A stretch of DNA of 64,000 nt, taken from Aeromonas lacus (GTDB taxonomy: Bacteria > Pseudomonadota > Gammaproteobacteria > Enterobacterales > Aeromonadaceae). Position 1 is the stretch's first letter; each line of letters opens with the position of its first letter. Where the stretch lies: assembly GCF_000764665.1 (NCBI RefSeq), contig NZ_JRGM01000140.1, positions 1 to 64,000 of the forward strand, written 5' to 3'. Shown in pieces: positions 28,909 through 34,866 of this stretch. The notes beneath the pieces are model-generated. The model was given only the letters and a program-made list of their open reading frames with translations. It was not told the DNA's origin and did not search any database. The position numbers were made by a program, and so were the translations under genes.

Positions 28909-29981
28909 GCGAAATCCTCACGGCACACCCGCTGCAGTTCAAGGTGCAGCGCCAGTTCGGCGCCTTTACCCTCGATTGCGAGCTGGCCTTGGAGCTGGGG
29001 GGCATCCTCGGTCTGTTCGGCCCTTCCGGCTGCGGCAAGAGCAGCTTGCTGCGCATCATCGCCGGGCTGGATCGCGCACCGGGTGACACCTTGAACTGGC
29101 AGGGCAGGGCGCTAAGCGATCTGCTGCCCGAAGCGCGCCGGATCGGACTGGTGTTTCAGGATTCGCGCCTTTTTCCTCACTTGAGCGTGCTTGGCAACCT
29201 GCAACTGGCGGCCCGCAAGGGGCAAGGGCGCTGGCAACCCGAGGCGTTGGCGAAGCGGCTCGGCTTTGCCGAACTGCTGCCCCAGCCGGCCCACGGCCTC
29301 TCCGGCGGCCAGCGCCAGCGGGTGGCGCTGGCCCGGGCTCTGTTGGCCGAACCGGATCTGCTGCTGCTCGATGAGCCTTTTTCCGCGCTGGATCGGCGCA
29401 GCCGCATCCATCAGGCCCACGTGCTCAAGGGGTTGCAGCAGGAGAGCGGCATCCCGATGATCTTCGTCAGCCACGCCATGGAGGAGGTGAGCCTGCTCTG
29501 CGATCAGCTGGTGTTGCTGGCGGATGGCCGGGTGGAGGCGCAAGGTCGACCGAGCGAGATCTTCGCCCGTACCGACCTTTCGCTCGCCAGTCGCGACGAC
29601 GCAGGGGTGATGCTGACGGCGACCCTCTCTCACTACGATAACGACGAGCAGATGGCTACTCTGCTGCTTGGTGAGCAACAATTGCGGGTCACCATGACTC
29701 ATGTGCCGGACGAGGGGGGCCCCCTGCAGATCAAGGTGGCCGGGCGGGACGTGGTGATTGCCACCGCCCCCATCGAGCACTCCAGCCTCTCCAACTGCCT
29801 CACCACCCGATTGCTGGCCGAGCGCGAGGTACGCCCCGGCCAGACCCTGTTGCAGTTGGCGCTGGGTCAGCAGATACTGCTGGCCCGGATCACCAGCCGC
29901 TCCGCCAGACGGCTGGCGCTCGCCCCGAACCAGCAGATCTACGCCTATATCAAGGCGGTGAGTCTGGTCAGCGAAGGTTGA
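28905..29981 (+). CDS. modC: Molybdate ABC transporter ATPase ModC
   Basis: A 358-residue ATPase that drives molybdate import. Walker A is GPSGCGKSS, the signature is LSGGQRQRVALARAL, Walker B is LLLLDEPFSALD, and the switch histidine is in VSHAMEEV. A C-terminal TOBE (Mop) domain at about 285-352 (SSLSNCLTTRLLAE) can bind molybdate and regulate the pump. Length matches E. coli (352). Confidence 0.97.
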   Translation: MSEILTAHPLQFKVQRQFGAFTLDCELALELGGILGLFGPSGCGKSSLLRIIAGLDRAPGDTLNWQGRALSDLLPEARRIGLVFQDSRLFPHLSVLGNLQLAARKGQGRWQPEALAKRLGFAELLPQPAHGLSGGQRQRVALARALLAEPDLLLLDEPFSALDRRSRIHQAHVLKGLQQESGIPMIFVSHAMEEVSLLCDQLVLLADGRVEAQGRPSEIFARTDLSLASRDDAGVMLTATLSHYDNDEQMATLLLGEQQLRVTMTHVPDEGGPLQIKVAGRDVVIATAPIEHSSLSNCLTTRLLAEREVRPGQTLLQLALGQQILLARITSRSARRLALAPNQQIYAYIKAVSLVSEG

Positions 29982-30057
29982 GCGGGATATATCTGGTTGA
30001 AGCATAAAAAACGAAGAACAGGATGGTTCAGCGGATGAGTCGAGAGGCAATGAACTG

Positions 30058-30834
30058 ATGCGCCGCAATCAGGTGATGAAATCCAACGGTCTTGCCCTGC
30101 GCTGTGCGGGGGAGGGCCCCTTGTTGCTGCTGCTGCATGGGCTGGGCTCCTCCAGCCTCGACTGGCAGGCACAAATAGAGCATTTTTCCGAGCACTACCG
30201 GGTGGTGGCGCTCGACCTGCGTGGCCACGGCCAGAGCATGCAGGAGGGGCCGTTCGACGTGGCCACTCTGGCGGCGGATGTAGTGCGCTGGCTTGATGAG
30301 CAATCCGGCCCCGCCTGGGTGGTGGGTCTCTCCCTGGGGGCCATGGTGGCGCTGGAGCTGGCGCTGCAACTGCCGCACAAGGTGCAGGGGCTGGTGCTGG
30401 TCAACGGCTTTAGCGAATTTCTGCTGGAGACCCCCAAAGAGCAGGAGCGGTTTGCCCAGCGGCTCAAGTGGCTGCGCTGGTTTGGCATGCGTCCGCTCGC
30501 GTGGTGGCTCGGCCGCGAGCTCTTTCCCGGCCCTGAGCTGGCTCAGGTGCGTCACACCTTCCGGCTGCGTTTCGTGCGCAATAAAAAGAAAACCTACAAG
30601 GCGTTGCTGGAGGCGCTGCCCGGCTGGTCGGTACGCGCGCGGCTCGGCAACATCTGGCAGCCGGTGGCCATCATCTCCACCAGTCACGACTATCTGCCGC
30701 TCGCCAAGCGGGTGGAGCAGTTCGCCTCCTTGCCCAACGCTACCATCCACACCCCCGAGGGTCACCACGCCTGGCCGGCGGAAGACCCCTCCGGTTTCAA
30801 TCATTTGCTTCACCGGATTTTAGAAACTCATTAA
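30058..30834 (+). CDS. Alpha/beta hydrolase
   Basis: A 258-residue alpha/beta-hydrolase fold protein. The oxyanion region is LLLLLHGLGSSSLDW, the nucleophile elbow is GLSLGAM (Ser about 93), and the histidine lies in TPEGHHAWPAEDP. The acid residue is probably in the ISTSHDYLPLA strand. It has no signal peptide. The gene lies 76 bp after modC on the same strand and is followed by a large inverted repeat. The substrate cannot be named; family members include BioH-, PcaD- and YfhR-like esterases. Confidence 0.85.
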   Translation: MRRNQVMKSNGLALRCAGEGPLLLLLHGLGSSSLDWQAQIEHFSEHYRVVALDLRGHGQSMQEGPFDVATLAADVVRWLDEQSGPAWVVGLSLGAMVALELALQLPHKVQGLVLVNGFSEFLLETPKEQERFAQRLKWLRWFGMRPLAWWLGRELFPGPELAQVRHTFRLRFVRNKKKTYKALLEALPGWSVRARLGNIWQPVAIISTSHDYLPLAKRVEQFASLPNATIHTPEGHHAWPAEDPSGFNHLLHRILETH

Positions 30835-30864
30835 ACTTGTCGCCTTTCAACTCCGTGTATGTAG

Positions 30865-30910
30865 TGGTCCGATCGCCTTGCCTGTGGCAGTTGGCAAGGC
30901 AATCGGACCA
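30865..30910. repeat. Large inverted repeat before the ParM-like gene
   Basis: Two 18-base arms, TGGTCCGATCGCCTTGCC and GGCAAGGCAATCGGACCA, pair at 17 of 18 positions around a 10-base loop. It lies 30 bp after the hydrolase stop and 28 bp before the ParM-like start, and is followed by ATTTTG. It could be a terminator for the upstream operon or a centromere/operator site for the ParM-ParR-like pair. Confidence 0.75.
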
Positions 30911-30938
30911 ATTTTGCTCTATCAACAGGTGCTTCCCC

Positions 30939-31982
30939 ATGTCTGAAGTAATGAAAATGGCCATCGATGATGGCTCGACCAACGTCAAGGTGAGCTGGAT
31001 TGAGAACAAGGTGCTCAAGACCATCATCTCTCCCAACTCTTTTCGCAAGGACTGGAAGAGTGCCGCATTGCGTAAAGACAAGAAGATCTACAACTACGAG
31101 ATAGGCAATACCAAATACACCTATGATGCGACGTCGGACAAATCGCTGGCGACCACTCATGTTGAGTACCAGTATGACGATCTCAACCTGCTCTCCGTGC
31201 ATCATGCCCTGCTGCAAACCGGCGTAACTCCCTGTGACGTGGCCATTACCGTGACCCTGCCCATCACCGAGTTCTATCACCCGGATGATTGCCAGCGTAA
31301 CGAAGAGAAGATCGAGAAGAAGCGTCGTAACCTGATGCGTGCCATCACCCTCAACAAGGGCGAACTGTTCAACATCGTCAGCGTGGAAGTGATGCCGGAG
31401 AGCCTGCCAGCGGCACTCTCTCGTCTGGTCGGTTCTGGCTGCAACGAATTTACCAAAACGCTGGTGATCGACTGCGGTGGCACCACCCTGGACATGGGGA
31501 TCATCGTCGGCGAGTTTGACGATGTCTCCGATGTCTACGGCAACAACGAGATCGGCGTCTCCATGGTGACCGATGCGACCCGCAAGGCGCTGGCGGCAGC
31601 AGACAGCGATTCGAGCTATCTGGTGGCCAACGAGTTCATCAAGCGTCGTCACGACATGAGTTTCGTGCGCGAGGTGGTCAACGACGAGAGCCAGATCCCG
31701 CGCATCCTCGAGAAGATGCAAAACAAGATCGACGAACTGGGCTCCCAGGTTGCCCACGAAGCCAAGAAGTTTGCCAAGAACCCGAACCGCGTCTATCTGG
31801 TCGGCGGTGGTGCTTCCCTCATCCACGATGCCATTAAAGCGGCCTACCCGACTCTGGGTGACAGAGTCGAGCTGCTGGATGATGCCCAGTCCGCACTGGC
31901 CCGCGAGATCTGCCTCTACACCACCGAAGAGGATGAGGTCTATCGCGAAGCGCCCGTGATGGCCGAGGTTGGCGATGAGTAG
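30939..31982 (+). CDS. ParM/StbA-family actin-like protein
   Basis: A 347-residue actin-like ATPase closely resembling plasmid R1 ParM. Shared parts are IDDGSTNVKVSW (phosphate 1), SPNSFRKDW, VHHALLQTG, VTLPITEFY, LVIDCGGTTLDMG (phosphate 2), VMPES, GVSMVT and the adenosine motif VYLVGGGASLIHDAIK. ParM forms filaments that push plasmid copies apart, with ParR at parC. The start at 30939 puts MKMAIDDGST near the N-terminus as in ParM; the frame is open upstream to 30837 across the inverted repeat without similarity. The next gene overlaps it by 8 bp. There are no replication genes here, so it is a chromosomal copy with unknown cargo. Confidence 0.88.
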   Translation: MSEVMKMAIDDGSTNVKVSWIENKVLKTIISPNSFRKDWKSAALRKDKKIYNYEIGNTKYTYDATSDKSLATTHVEYQYDDLNLLSVHHALLQTGVTPCDVAITVTLPITEFYHPDDCQRNEEKIEKKRRNLMRAITLNKGELFNIVSVEVMPESLPAALSRLVGSGCNEFTKTLVIDCGGTTLDMGIIVGEFDDVSDVYGNNEIGVSMVTDATRKALAAADSDSSYLVANEFIKRRHDMSFVREVVNDESQIPRILEKMQNKIDELGSQVAHEAKKFAKNPNRVYLVGGGASLIHDAIKAAYPTLGDRVELLDDAQSALAREICLYTTEEDEVYREAPVMAEVGDE

Positions 31983-32790
31983 TCAACTCAAGCGCATGTC
32001 CTTCTCCATCTATATGGATCCGGGGGCGCTGGAGTCTGATCGCTATGCGGTCGGGGTGTTGCAGAACTGGTATCAGCGGGCGCGCAAGATCCAGGATGGC
32101 AGCGAGGAGTTTGACTTCTCCAAGAGCCGCTTCCACAAGGATATCTATCTCTCGGGCATGTTCATGTATGTACTGGCGCCCAACCTCTGCAAGGCGATTG
32201 CCAATGCATTGGGGCCGGAGCAGGTGAGCATGACCACCCTGCGCCATGCCTTTGCCAGCTGTGGTTTCCATCTGGGCGGGGAGGGCAACGAACGCCCCGC
32301 TACGGATGCCATGGTTGAGGAGATAGTGGCACGACTGGCTCCGCGGCTGGAGCAGGCAGATAACGGTTCGCTGGCTGACGAGATTGTGAGTCGTCTTGGC
32401 CAGCAGGGAGGAGCACCCTCTTCCGACCAGTTGGTGGAGGAGATAGTGAGCCGCCTTGGTGAGCAGCAGCCCACCGAGCTGTGGGATGAGCTGAGGCAAG
32501 GTCTGCCAACCCCCCTCGATCATGAGCAGCTGGCTGAAGCGATTGCGGGCAAGTTGCCATCAACTGCAGGCGAGCAGGATCTGGCGCCGCTGCAGAGCAG
32601 CATCCAGTTGTTGTCCCGTCAGCTGGAAGAGCAATCGCGTCTGATCCGCGAGCAGCACAGATTGATCCAGCGGCTGGCCAGTGCGCCGGTGCGACAGGGC
32701 AGTGATGGCGCTGAGGCTGAACCCATAGTGGAAGATTTGTCGGCTCAAGTAGCCAACATCAAACGAGTCAAGGCCAAGGGTATTTTCTGA
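31975..32790 (+). CDS. ParR/StbB-like partner protein with helical repeats
   Basis: A 271-residue protein, translationally coupled to the ParM-like gene (start ATG 31975, GAGG 7 bases upstream). The N-terminal ~105 residues (MSFSIYMDPG, NWYQRARKIQ, HKDIYLSGMFMYVLAPNLCKAIANAL) have the composition of a DNA-binding ParR-like domain. From about 105-190 comes a run of related units: MVEEIVARL, LADEIVSRLGQQ, LVEEIVSRLGEQQ, LAEAIAGKL. A coiled coil follows (LSRQLEEQSRLIREQHRLIQRL, about 208-230), then a short basic end. It would be the adaptor linking DNA to the filament. The repeat-rich extension is longer than plasmid ParR (about 117 residues in R1). Confidence 0.6.
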   Translation: MSSQLKRMSFSIYMDPGALESDRYAVGVLQNWYQRARKIQDGSEEFDFSKSRFHKDIYLSGMFMYVLAPNLCKAIANALGPEQVSMTTLRHAFASCGFHLGGEGNERPATDAMVEEIVARLAPRLEQADNGSLADEIVSRLGQQGGAPSSDQLVEEIVSRLGEQQPTELWDELRQGLPTPLDHEQLAEAIAGKLPSTAGEQDLAPLQSSIQLLSRQLEEQSRLIREQHRLIQRLASAPVRQGSDGAEAEPIVEDLSAQVANIKRVKAKGIF

Positions 32791-32815
32791 CGGCACTTGA
32801 CGTAAAAAACAATGC

Positions 32816-32844
32816 AAAAAGCCGACCCATGGGGTCGGCTTTTT
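32816..32844. terminator. Bidirectional terminator between the ParM/ParR-like operon and moeB
   Basis: Stem AAAAGCCGACCC / GGGTCGGCTTTT with a short loop, flanked by A5 and T5. It serves the plus-strand operon and may also act for moeAB, which ends 43 bp away. Confidence 0.9.
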
Positions 32845-32887
32845 ATTGGCTGCAACTGAGCACATCGCTATGCGGGAGCTGCCGTGC

Positions 32888-33643
32888 TTACGGATGTGAG
32901 CAGACCGGACACTCGGGGCGCTTGGGCAGTTTCATCTCGCGAAAGGTGCCGCTTAGGCCGTCGATCATCAGCAGGCGGCCGCTGTAGCTCTTGCCCATGT
33001 CGGCCAGCAGTTTGATTGCTTCGAGTGCTTGCAGGCTGCCCACCAATCCCACCACGGGGGCAAGCACTCCCGCCTCGACACAGGTGAGGGCCTGCTCGCC
33101 AAACAGGGCGCTGAGGCAGGCGTAGCAGGGCTCATCCTGCTGCCAGGTGAAGCTGCAGAGCTGACCCTCCAGCCGGATGGCGGCGCCGCTGACCAGCGGT
33201 ACGCCGTGCTGGCGCGCCTTTTGGTTGAGCAGGTTGCGAATGGCCAGATTGTCGGTGCAGTCGAGCACCAGCTGATGCCGTGGCAGCAGGGTATCGAGCA
33301 GCGCCTCATCGGCCACGGCAGCGTGGGTCTCCACATCAAGCCAGGGGTTGAGGGCGCGCAGCGATTGTGCTGCTGAGTCCACCTTGTAGTGGCCGAGGCG
33401 CGCATCGTTGTGCAGCACCTGCCGCTGCAGGTTGGAGAGCTCCACCTTGTCGAAATCGACCAGGGTGAGCTGGCCTACTCCAGCCACAGCTAGATACTGG
33501 CTGGTGGCGCAGCCGAGGCCACCGGCGCCAATCACCAGAACATGGGCCAGTTTGAGCGCCTCCTGCCCCTCGAAATCGAAGGATTTGAGGATGATCTGGC
33601 GGTTGTAGCGCAACAGCTCGGCGTCGCTCAGGATCTCGCTCAC
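32888..33643 (-). CDS. moeB: Molybdopterin-synthase adenylyltransferase MoeB
   Basis: A 251-residue E1-like enzyme that activates the MoaD C-terminus with ATP. The nucleotide fold is [23 protein letters not shown], followed by [16 protein letters not shown]. The adenylation and acceptor region is [15 protein letters not shown]. Zinc cysteines are CYACL and the C-terminal CPVC. It overlaps moeA by ATGA and is the second gene of moeAB. Confidence 0.97.
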
Positions 33644-34866
33644 AGCAGCAATCCCCCGAATGGTTCGACGGTGACGGTTTCGCCCGTAGCGACGCGGCCA
33701 CGCTCACGCTCAAGGATGATGTAGCAGTTGGCCCGCGACAGGGAGCTGAACACGGCGGAGTCCTGCGAGCCGGTGCTGCGCACCTCAAGGCCGTTTGGTC
33801 CCTGACTCAGGATGCCGCGCTGGAAGTCGAGCCGGCCCGGACTCTTCTTGAGCGGTTCGGTGGTGACGGCCTGCAGCTGAAGCGGGCGCTCGAAGCGTTG
33901 GCCAGCCAGCTTGGCCAGCGCCGGTTGCACCAGCTGATCGAAGGTGACCATGGCGGAGACCGGGTTGCCCGGCAGGCCGAAGAACCAGGCGCGGGGCAGG
34001 CGGCCGAAGGCAAACGGCTTGCCCGGCTTGATGGCCAGCTTCCAGAAGCCGATCTCGCCGAGCTCGTCCAGCAGCTGTTTGGTGAAGTCCGCTTCCCCTA
34101 CCGAAACGCCGCCGGTGGTGATGAGCACATCGGCCTCTTCATCGGCGCGGATAAAGGCGGCACGCAGCTGGGCGGGGTCGTCCGGGATGATGCCAAGGTC
34201 GAGGCAGTCGCACCCCAGACGCGCCAGCATGGCCCGCACGCCGTAGCGGTTGGAGTCGTAGATATCACCGTGTGCGAGCGGGGTGCCAACTGGCTTGAGC
34301 TCATCGCCAGTGCTGAAGATGGCCACTTTCAGTGGGCGGCGCACCGGCACGGTGGCGATGCCGAGGGAGGCCAGCAGCGGCATCTCGCGCGGGGTAAGGC
34401 GGGTGCCTGCTTGCAACACACAGGCCCCCTTGTCGATATCGCTGCCGGCGCGGCGGATATTCTGGCCCGGTTCGGGCTGTGCCAGAAAAGTGATCCGATC
34501 GCCGTCGGCCTGCGTTTCTTCCTGCATCACCACTGCATCTGTCCCTACGGGGACCGGGGCGCCAGTCATGATCCGCACGCAGTGGCCGCCGGGCCACTCG
34601 CCCTGATAGGGCTGACCGGCAAAGGCTTTGCCCGCCATGATGAGCGGGATGCCTGCAGCGAGATCGGCCAACCGCACGGCGTAACCGTCCATGGCGGAGT
34701 TGTCGAACGGGGGCACGGCGAGGGGAGAGGCGATGTTGCTGGCAAGGATCCGGCCAAGGGCCTGTGGCAGGGGCAGTTGCTCGCTGTCGCAACAGCAGGC
34801 GAGTTGCTCCAGCATTCCTTGCAGGGCATCGCTTAACGGCAGTAGTCCGCTGGTATCAAATCCCAT
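33640..34866 (-). CDS. moeA: Molybdopterin molybdenumtransferase MoeA
   Basis: Inserts molybdate into adenylylated molybdopterin. It is 408 residues from the ATG at 34866 (E. coli 411). An ATG six bases further up (34872) is in frame but only 2 bases from the AGAGG site. Family parts are [73 protein letters not shown] and [14 protein letters not shown]. Domain III/IV ends with [16 protein letters not shown]. It is divergent from folE; the two enzymes sit on the two GTP-derived pterin routes. Confidence 0.97.

Follow-up and report, generated by a model that had tools for sequence, protein, structure and literature searches.

A ParM-like gene and an overlapping gene for a ParR-like partner in Aeromonas lacus belong to a chromosomal family that is found almost only with lateral flagella, which suggests that the ParM filament has been re-used to place or share out flagella. 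The pair lies within the 64,000-nucleotide stretch of DNA that was analysed as a whole (hereafter ‘the window’; contig NZ_JRGM01000140.1, positions 1 to 64,000). Chromosomal ParMR systems were already known (2025). The new part is the association with lateral flagella, for which we found no report in the literature searched, most subscription papers being outside our reach.

The gene pair and its products

An earlier note on this DNA, made from the letters alone, had proposed a ParM homologue encoded with an overlapping partner on the chromosome, and this is borne out by Pfam matches, by matches to R1 ParM structures and by an overlap of 8 bases (ATGAGTAG) that runs across the parM stop codon. 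Both reading frames in the window begin with ATG. The same note had begun the unit at 30865, which does not hold as a start codon (the parM ATG is at 30939); the position falls within the leader, by the hairpin at 30866-30909. The features of the pair are as follows.

30939-31982, plus strand: parM, an actin-like ATPase of 347 amino acids in the lateral-flagella-associated ParM clade (Pfam, R1 ParM structures, tree)
31975-32790, plus strand: ParR-like partner gene, 271 amino acids, overlapping parM (2jd3 profile match, hhalign, Plasmid_stab_B in 25 of 42 family members)
31975-32259, plus strand: partner residues 1-95, ParR-homologous N-terminal domain (hhalign, 2jd3 profile, AF2 model)
32584-32682, plus strand: partner residues 204-236, a long helix (AF2 model of the whole partner)
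32737-32787, plus strand: partner residues 255-271, C-terminal helix and proposed ParM-binding tail (tail alignments)

The ParM of the window matches the Pfam models StbA_N (E-value 6.9e-60) and ParM second domain (2.1e-36) as well as R1 ParM structures (E about 3e-68), and is 38.7% identical to an R1-type plasmid ParM. Residues D10, D11, E154, D178, G180, G181 and T182 form the ATPase motif and are invariant in an alignment of 10 sequences; we take their catalytic roles to be those assigned in R1 ParM. Judged by sequence family and ATPase motif, the protein is a member of the ParM family.

The composition of the two genes (GC 55.8% and GC3 0.75 for parM, 59.1% and 0.70 for the partner) does not quite match that of nine neighbour genes (GC 60-66%, GC3 0.78-0.83), contrary to what had been supposed. 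The accompanying view that the pair is settled does stand, given a dN/dS for parM of 0.036 (136 pairs from 17 Aeromonas genomes; 0.033 for lateral flhA), which reflects strong purifying selection.

The partner is, on the evidence of family profiles, a ParR/StbB homologue by its N-terminal domain. The window sequence alone gives a sub-threshold match to Pfam Plasmid_stab_B (E=0.14), and 25 of 42 family members match this model, the best at 6.7e-13. When the family was aligned by hhalign with ten plasmid-type ParR/StbB sequences (eight plasmid-borne and two taken from plasmid-like genome copies), the match reached 96.4% with E=1.3e-9 over residues 1-95, and a profile of 64 N-terminal domains matches PDB 2jd3 (STBB) with E=1.2e-5. 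An AF2 model of residues 1-105 has a mean pLDDT of 86.3, and that of the whole protein is poor (62.9); Foldseek searches with both models, as monomers, gave no useful PDB match bearing on a ribbon-helix-helix fold, which the partner may still have, and no ParR structure in the match lists. The long helix in the whole-protein model is probably a coiled coil.

The end of the partner carries the motif (K/R)x(K/R)G(I/L/V)(F/W) in all 80 tails compared, and K268 and G269 are invariant across 42 sequences. Plasmid ParR tails are likewise short and basic/hydrophobic, and in R1 the C-terminal tail of ParR binds ParM. By this likeness, we propose that the partner tail should bind the ParM filament. Basic residues near the N-terminus are also conserved in the partner alignment.

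Relatives were compared at 81 loci, namely the best 80 of 127 relatives and one large Photobacterium replicon. The partner directly follows parM in 80 of these, the other (L068) stopping at a contig edge. Two partner genes are frame-shifted: that of Aeromonas salmonicida subsp. salmonicida ATCC 33658 (L041:9037-9845) near its start, with parM open, and that of Photobacterium sp. JCM 19050 (L080), which has a similar break. Aeromonas salmonicida subsp. salmonicida is known as non-motile.

Co-occurrence with lateral flagella

The association between parMR and lateral flagella is strong. Of 37 Aeromonas genomes, 20 carry parM, and exactly these 20 also carry lateral flhA, which is 60-62% identical to the query (polar flhA reaches no more than 51%). 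Conservation throughout Aeromonas, a check that the earlier note had called for, is therefore not universal. Lateral motA was found in 19 of the 20 parM genomes and in none of the other 17 (agreement in 36 of 37); the exception, G027, has lateral flhA, and the contig that bears it breaks off soon after the start of fliF. The two traits need not be neighbours: parM and lateral flhA lie at 1.52 and 4.11, 3.90 and 0.46, and 3.02 and 0.43 Mb in the three single-contig Aeromonas genomes that carry both, and the lateral cluster of the window genome is on a separate contig (C54, about 54-87 kb).

A tree of polar flhA (one gene, with a single long branch, G006) shows at least 10 changes of the trait on supported branches. 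Independent pairs drawn on this tree agree for parM and lateral flhA in 10 of 10 cases (p=0.002); one presence vector stood for the two traits in this test, their genome sets being identical. Distances for parM and lateral flhA are also correlated when polar flhA is held constant (partial r 0.58; 17 genomes, with 0 of 2000 permutations as high).

Across the order, 25 of 394 genomes carry ParM at E<=1e-60, and 22 of these belong to the clade of the window (62-100% identity). All 22 fall among the 51 genomes with a lateral-type flhA at E<=1e-222, a cut chosen after seeing the data so as to take in G144 and G261; the hypergeometric probability of this overlap is about 3e-22, uncorrected for kinship. 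The flhA identity is 56-62% in 20 of the 22 and a divergent 51-52% in G144 and G261, whose copies lie near parM; flagellar genes are no more than about 35 kb from parM in both. The three remaining genomes have plasmid-like ParMs (40-48%), and none is among the 51. The pair is not a core gene of lateral flagella, being found in 22 of the 51 lateral-flhA genomes; the other 29 are without a ParM of the window clade, so lateral flagella work without it.

Some individual records deserve mention. An Aeromonas MAG (L003/G030) has lateral flhA 97-98% and parM 95-96% identical to those of G000/G016, and polar flhA only 85% identical, which could reflect joint transfer of the unlinked loci or a mixed bin. 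The window genome holds a third, distant FlhA relative (34%; G000:C112:34938-36995), which is probably a type III secretion export gate. As to E. coli flag-2 strains, the parM DNA of L058 had no match in an E. coli collection, in a search that a more diverged gene could escape.

Placement of the pair in relatives

Of the 81 loci, 39 have two or more flagellar genes no further than 8 kb from parMR, in several arrangements. Many Enterobacteriaceae have the order flagellin-fliD-fliS-fliK-fliL-sigma28-motA-motB-nlpC-parM-partner (Pfam names), and in Photobacterium and Enterovibrio the pair comes after a motB-like gene, either directly or with intervening sequence. In Citrobacter sp. R56 and Awk 4, Buttiauxella and Pluralibacter, it is found between fliE-fliI and slt-flhA-flhB. 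Other orders are lafK-parMR-fliP-flhB-flhA in G066 and, in G144, parM immediately after fliI in the run fliE-F-G-H-I. The distance to the next upstream reading frame, taken mechanically as a frame of at least 120 amino acids, is 2-83 bp in 22 of the 39 linked loci.

In two Vibrio loci (L086 and L097), the pair is beside flhB and fliP, and each of these genomes has three FlhA copies (59-60, 53-54 and 52-53% identity). There, the flagellar genes next to parM may belong to a third system rather than to the lateral one. The flhA of G144 and G261, together with the 53-54% Vibrio copies, may mark a separate lateral-like system, and the copies of all four genomes may represent a further lateral-like flagellar type that goes with parM.

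Lateral flhA is also present where no linkage is seen. The 42 loci without nearby flagellar genes comprise 13 from main-clade Aeromonas and 29 that were searched, of which 27 represent genomes with full-length lateral flhA (55-63%). In Vibrio mexicanus, lateral flhA is a fragment with a stop (64%), and the last record consists of one 2.1 Mb replicon that lacks flhA. Lateral flhA is thus found in 28 of 28 whole genomes with an unlinked locus, in one as a fragment only; by match coordinates, five of these genomes (G009, G027, G029, G390 and G407) are counted elsewhere too. Among 38 searchable genomes with a linked locus, 36 have full-length lateral flhA at 55-100% identity, the upper value being that of the query's own genome. 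The other two are a Kluyvera (L060) with a cut flhA (55%) and a Leclercia MAG (L091) with an ambiguous 51% fragment. By position in the lateral cluster or by joint occurrence with it, parMR counts as part of the lateral-flagellar gene set.

Genes for cell-wall enzymes also occur near the pair. An NlpC/P60 peptidase gene is upstream of parM in 18 of the 81 loci (e.g. L056:7148-7957), and a lytic transglycosylase (SLT) gene is beside parMR in four others (e.g. L087:10223-11461). Their products are possible cell-wall helpers of lateral flagella.

The site in Aeromonas

In the window, parMR is flanked upstream by an alpha/beta hydrolase gene and downstream by moeB and moeA on the opposite strand. 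The claim that no replication genes are near is confirmed for the nine neighbour genes tested (moaE, modA, modB, modC, the hydrolase gene, moeB, moeA, folE and an MCP gene), none of which is a replication gene. The hydrolase gene and moeB are 71-136 bp apart in 15 of 17 Aeromonas genomes without the pair; of the other two, G006 has a gap of 589 bp with a different sequence inside, and in G028 the contig ends. Among 17 main-clade Aeromonas with the pair, the partner adjoins moeB in 16, with about 9 kb intervening in G024. Given this single site, empty or filled, the pair was gained or lost cleanly there in the main clade. The pair and moeB are on different contigs in three further Aeromonas (G009, G027 and G029).

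The molybdenum cofactor (Moco) district, in which the earlier note had set the pair, is incidental in light of the 15 of 17 empty sites and the location of the pair elsewhere in other genera. A Moco-linked function is rejected, this neighbourhood being specific to main-clade Aeromonas.

Two hairpins border the genes.

30866-30909, plus strand: RNA hairpin of 16 pairs in the parM leader, conserved in main-clade Aeromonas (z -5.9; covariation)
32815-32845, strand not assigned: terminator-like hairpin common to the partner gene and moeB

Three pairs of the leader hairpin are altered on both sides, and 97.3% of cells are paired among 16 distinct sequences. It looks like an RNA hairpin that serves either as the terminator of the hydrolase gene or in leader control of parM. 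Because three pairs change on both sides, this inverted repeat is disfavoured as a centromere. A hairpin like the one at 32815-32845 was seen by eye in all 15 short hydrolase-moeB gaps of pair-less Aeromonas.

No consensus sigma-70 promoter was found upstream of parM, and no lateral sigma-28-like promoter at parM in Aeromonas; three matches to the latter elsewhere in the window are near the number expected by chance. Positions 29900-33700 hold no known RNA family at gathering scores, and PADLOC reported no defence-system match. A tmRNA gene, a common integration site, is present at the window edge (1732-2091).

Relationship to plasmid and phage systems

A quick tree of 96 ParMs, with SH-aLRT support only and very long branches for some plasmid rows, splits 84 chromosomal rows from 12 plasmid-type rows (SH-aLRT 98). 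The main-Aeromonas clade of the window is sister (SH-aLRT 99) to the cluster-embedded parM genes of Citrobacter, Buttiauxella and Pluralibacter. Among the best 5000 records, the closest ParMs of ordinary plasmids are about 52% identical, and a search of 72,556 plasmid records with the window partner gave a single match, to a 2.1 Mb Photobacterium replicon. For phage ParMs, identity does not exceed about 42% among the 12 records listed out of 16.

That the pair is a chromosomal system rather than a recent plasmid insertion, as had been argued beforehand, is thus backed by the tree, the plasmid-record searches and dN/dS. Nor is the pair confined to strains with an integrated plasmid, the case that had been named as counting against this reading. 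A recent plasmid or phage insertion is rejected on the basis of the lack of replication genes, the clean empty sites, the distance of phage ParMs and the conserved clade. One record in the set (L114), titled Marinobacter nauticus DP3N21-5, has parM nested among Ferrimonas balearica genes from isolates that bear similar strain names; it is probably a mislabelled assembly.

Search for a centromere

We scanned 240 bp upstream of each pair for periodic repeats of 10-12 bp, with z over 4 as the threshold. Canonical 11-bp parC-type repeats exceed it in 6 of 11 plasmid-type controls (including two near-identical pairs) and in none of the 81 chromosomal loci, where the highest value is 3.8 (L111). No comparable repeat array is present in the window or in the lateral cluster of the window genome. 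Other kinds of centromere may be present, because 5 of the 11 controls are also below threshold. Two Shewanella loci have short-period arrays at some distance from parMR, about 2.4 kb away at L103:4552 (11-bp score 0.98) and about 7 kb away at L108:603 (0.67).

Proposed function and alternatives

We consider it somewhat probable that this ParMR pair, having shed its plasmid cargo, now serves as an accessory to lateral (flag-2) flagella and would probably act in their distribution or inheritance. The earlier note had envisaged an actin-like system with unknown cargo; the chromosomal actin-like system is upheld, and the cargo can be narrowed down, since co-occurrence and placement tie the pair to lateral flagella. 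The likeliest cargo appears to be some part of the lateral flagellum (basal body, switch or export complex), as the pair accompanies lateral flagella with or without linkage and, where linked, lies among structural genes. ParM would polymerise with ATP into filaments, and the conserved C-terminal tail of the partner would cap or push the filament end in the manner of R1 ParR. The N-terminal domain and stalk of the partner would grip a non-plasmid cargo, and the filament could then spread lateral flagella along the cell or divide them between daughters. Several results speak against this reading: 29 of the 51 lateral-flhA genomes do without this ParM, the partner keeps N-terminal basic residues that would suit DNA, the cluster next to parM in the two Vibrio may belong to a third system, the Aeromonas parM shows no lateral sigma-28 promoter, and Foldseek listed no ParR structure for the partner models. 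In its most specific form, which we put forward tentatively and with slightly more doubt than belief, ParM pushes lateral-flagellar basal bodies apart through a ParR-derived adaptor, giving even spacing and inheritance by both daughters.

The main rival is that the cargo is still DNA, with the partner and ParM separating nucleoids or a chromosomal site in the long swarmer cells that make lateral flagella; the link to these flagella would then arise through cell differentiation. We regard it as unlikely, yet it is the leading alternative because a ParR-like domain may still bind DNA: the N-terminal domain is homologous to that of DNA-binding ParR, and the basic residues kept at its start mean that DNA may still be what the partner carries. 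Chromosomal ParMR has, moreover, been discussed as pushing or pulling chromosomes, and Clostridium botulinum has a parC bound by ParR, according to the accessible text of that report (PMC12270681). Against DNA as cargo, canonical iterons are found upstream in 0 of 81 loci, with none comparable in the window or the lateral cluster, and the placement in G144 after fliE-F-G-H-I suits a flagellar role better. The frequent position of parMR among laf genes would also fit a role in their regulation, with the partner repressing or activating them as a ParM-dependent DNA-binding protein, and ParR proteins do autoregulate their own operon. However, a filament-type ATPase under strong purifying selection is, in our judgement, a costly way to build a switch, and we consider such a role quite improbable.

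Homology to plasmid ParMR also brings to mind a domesticated or parked stability module that stabilises resident plasmids. This seems very improbable: canonical iterons are lacking, the only partner match in plasmid records is the large replicon, and the clade stands apart from the sampled plasmid ParMs. Nor would such a module be expected to match the presence of unlinked lateral flagella in every one of the 37 Aeromonas genomes.

A role for ParMR in placing or sharing out lateral flagella makes a sharp prediction, because parM is unlinked to flagellar genes in Aeromonas and embedded among them in many other genera. If true, a bacterial actin would have an organelle for its cargo, a plasmid machine would have been domesticated for cell biology, and chromosomal ParMs would gain a testable function. 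To our knowledge, what sets the number and placement of lateral flagella is not settled.

Relation to known systems

The closest reference system is ParMRC (StbAB) of R1, with which the window shares a ParM of the same family with the ATPase motif, an adjacent downstream ParR homologue, and a short basic/hydrophobic C-terminal tail on that partner. The window pair differs in the divergence of its ParM (38.7% identity to R1-type ParM) and in a partner of 271 amino acids with a long linker and helix; pairs of this type are chromosomal, tied to lateral flagella and without a canonical iteron centromere. FlhG, which is MinD/ParA-like, acts with FlhF in polar flagellar placement, a dedicated nucleotide-driven process like that proposed for ParMR; unlike ParM, neither protein is an actin. 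FlhF is an SRP-type GTPase, as described in the accessible part of one report (PMC7226244).

Chromosomal ParMs (cParM) were described from Desulfitobacterium and Clostridium botulinum (JBC 2025; PMC12270681), with their function left open in the text available. This ParMR is likewise chromosomal and conserved within a genus, whereas the taxa are different and the C. botulinum system retains a parC bound by ParR (PMC12270681, as far as accessible). The main text of that paper does not mention flagella, Aeromonas, Enterobacter, Photobacterium, Shewanella or Vibrio. A survey of the Enterobacterales flag-2 system lists, in its main text, 39 conserved proteins and 349 cargo genes (PMC6993521); it is the cluster of this system that holds or adjoins parMR in many genera. 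The terms ParM, StbA and actin are absent from the main text of the survey, and ParM is absent by term search from the accessible text of PMC7526173 and PMC4481668. In the parts available of other literature, ParM/StbA genes are described as transposon attachment sites in Shewanella, and plasmid ParM is mentioned elsewhere.
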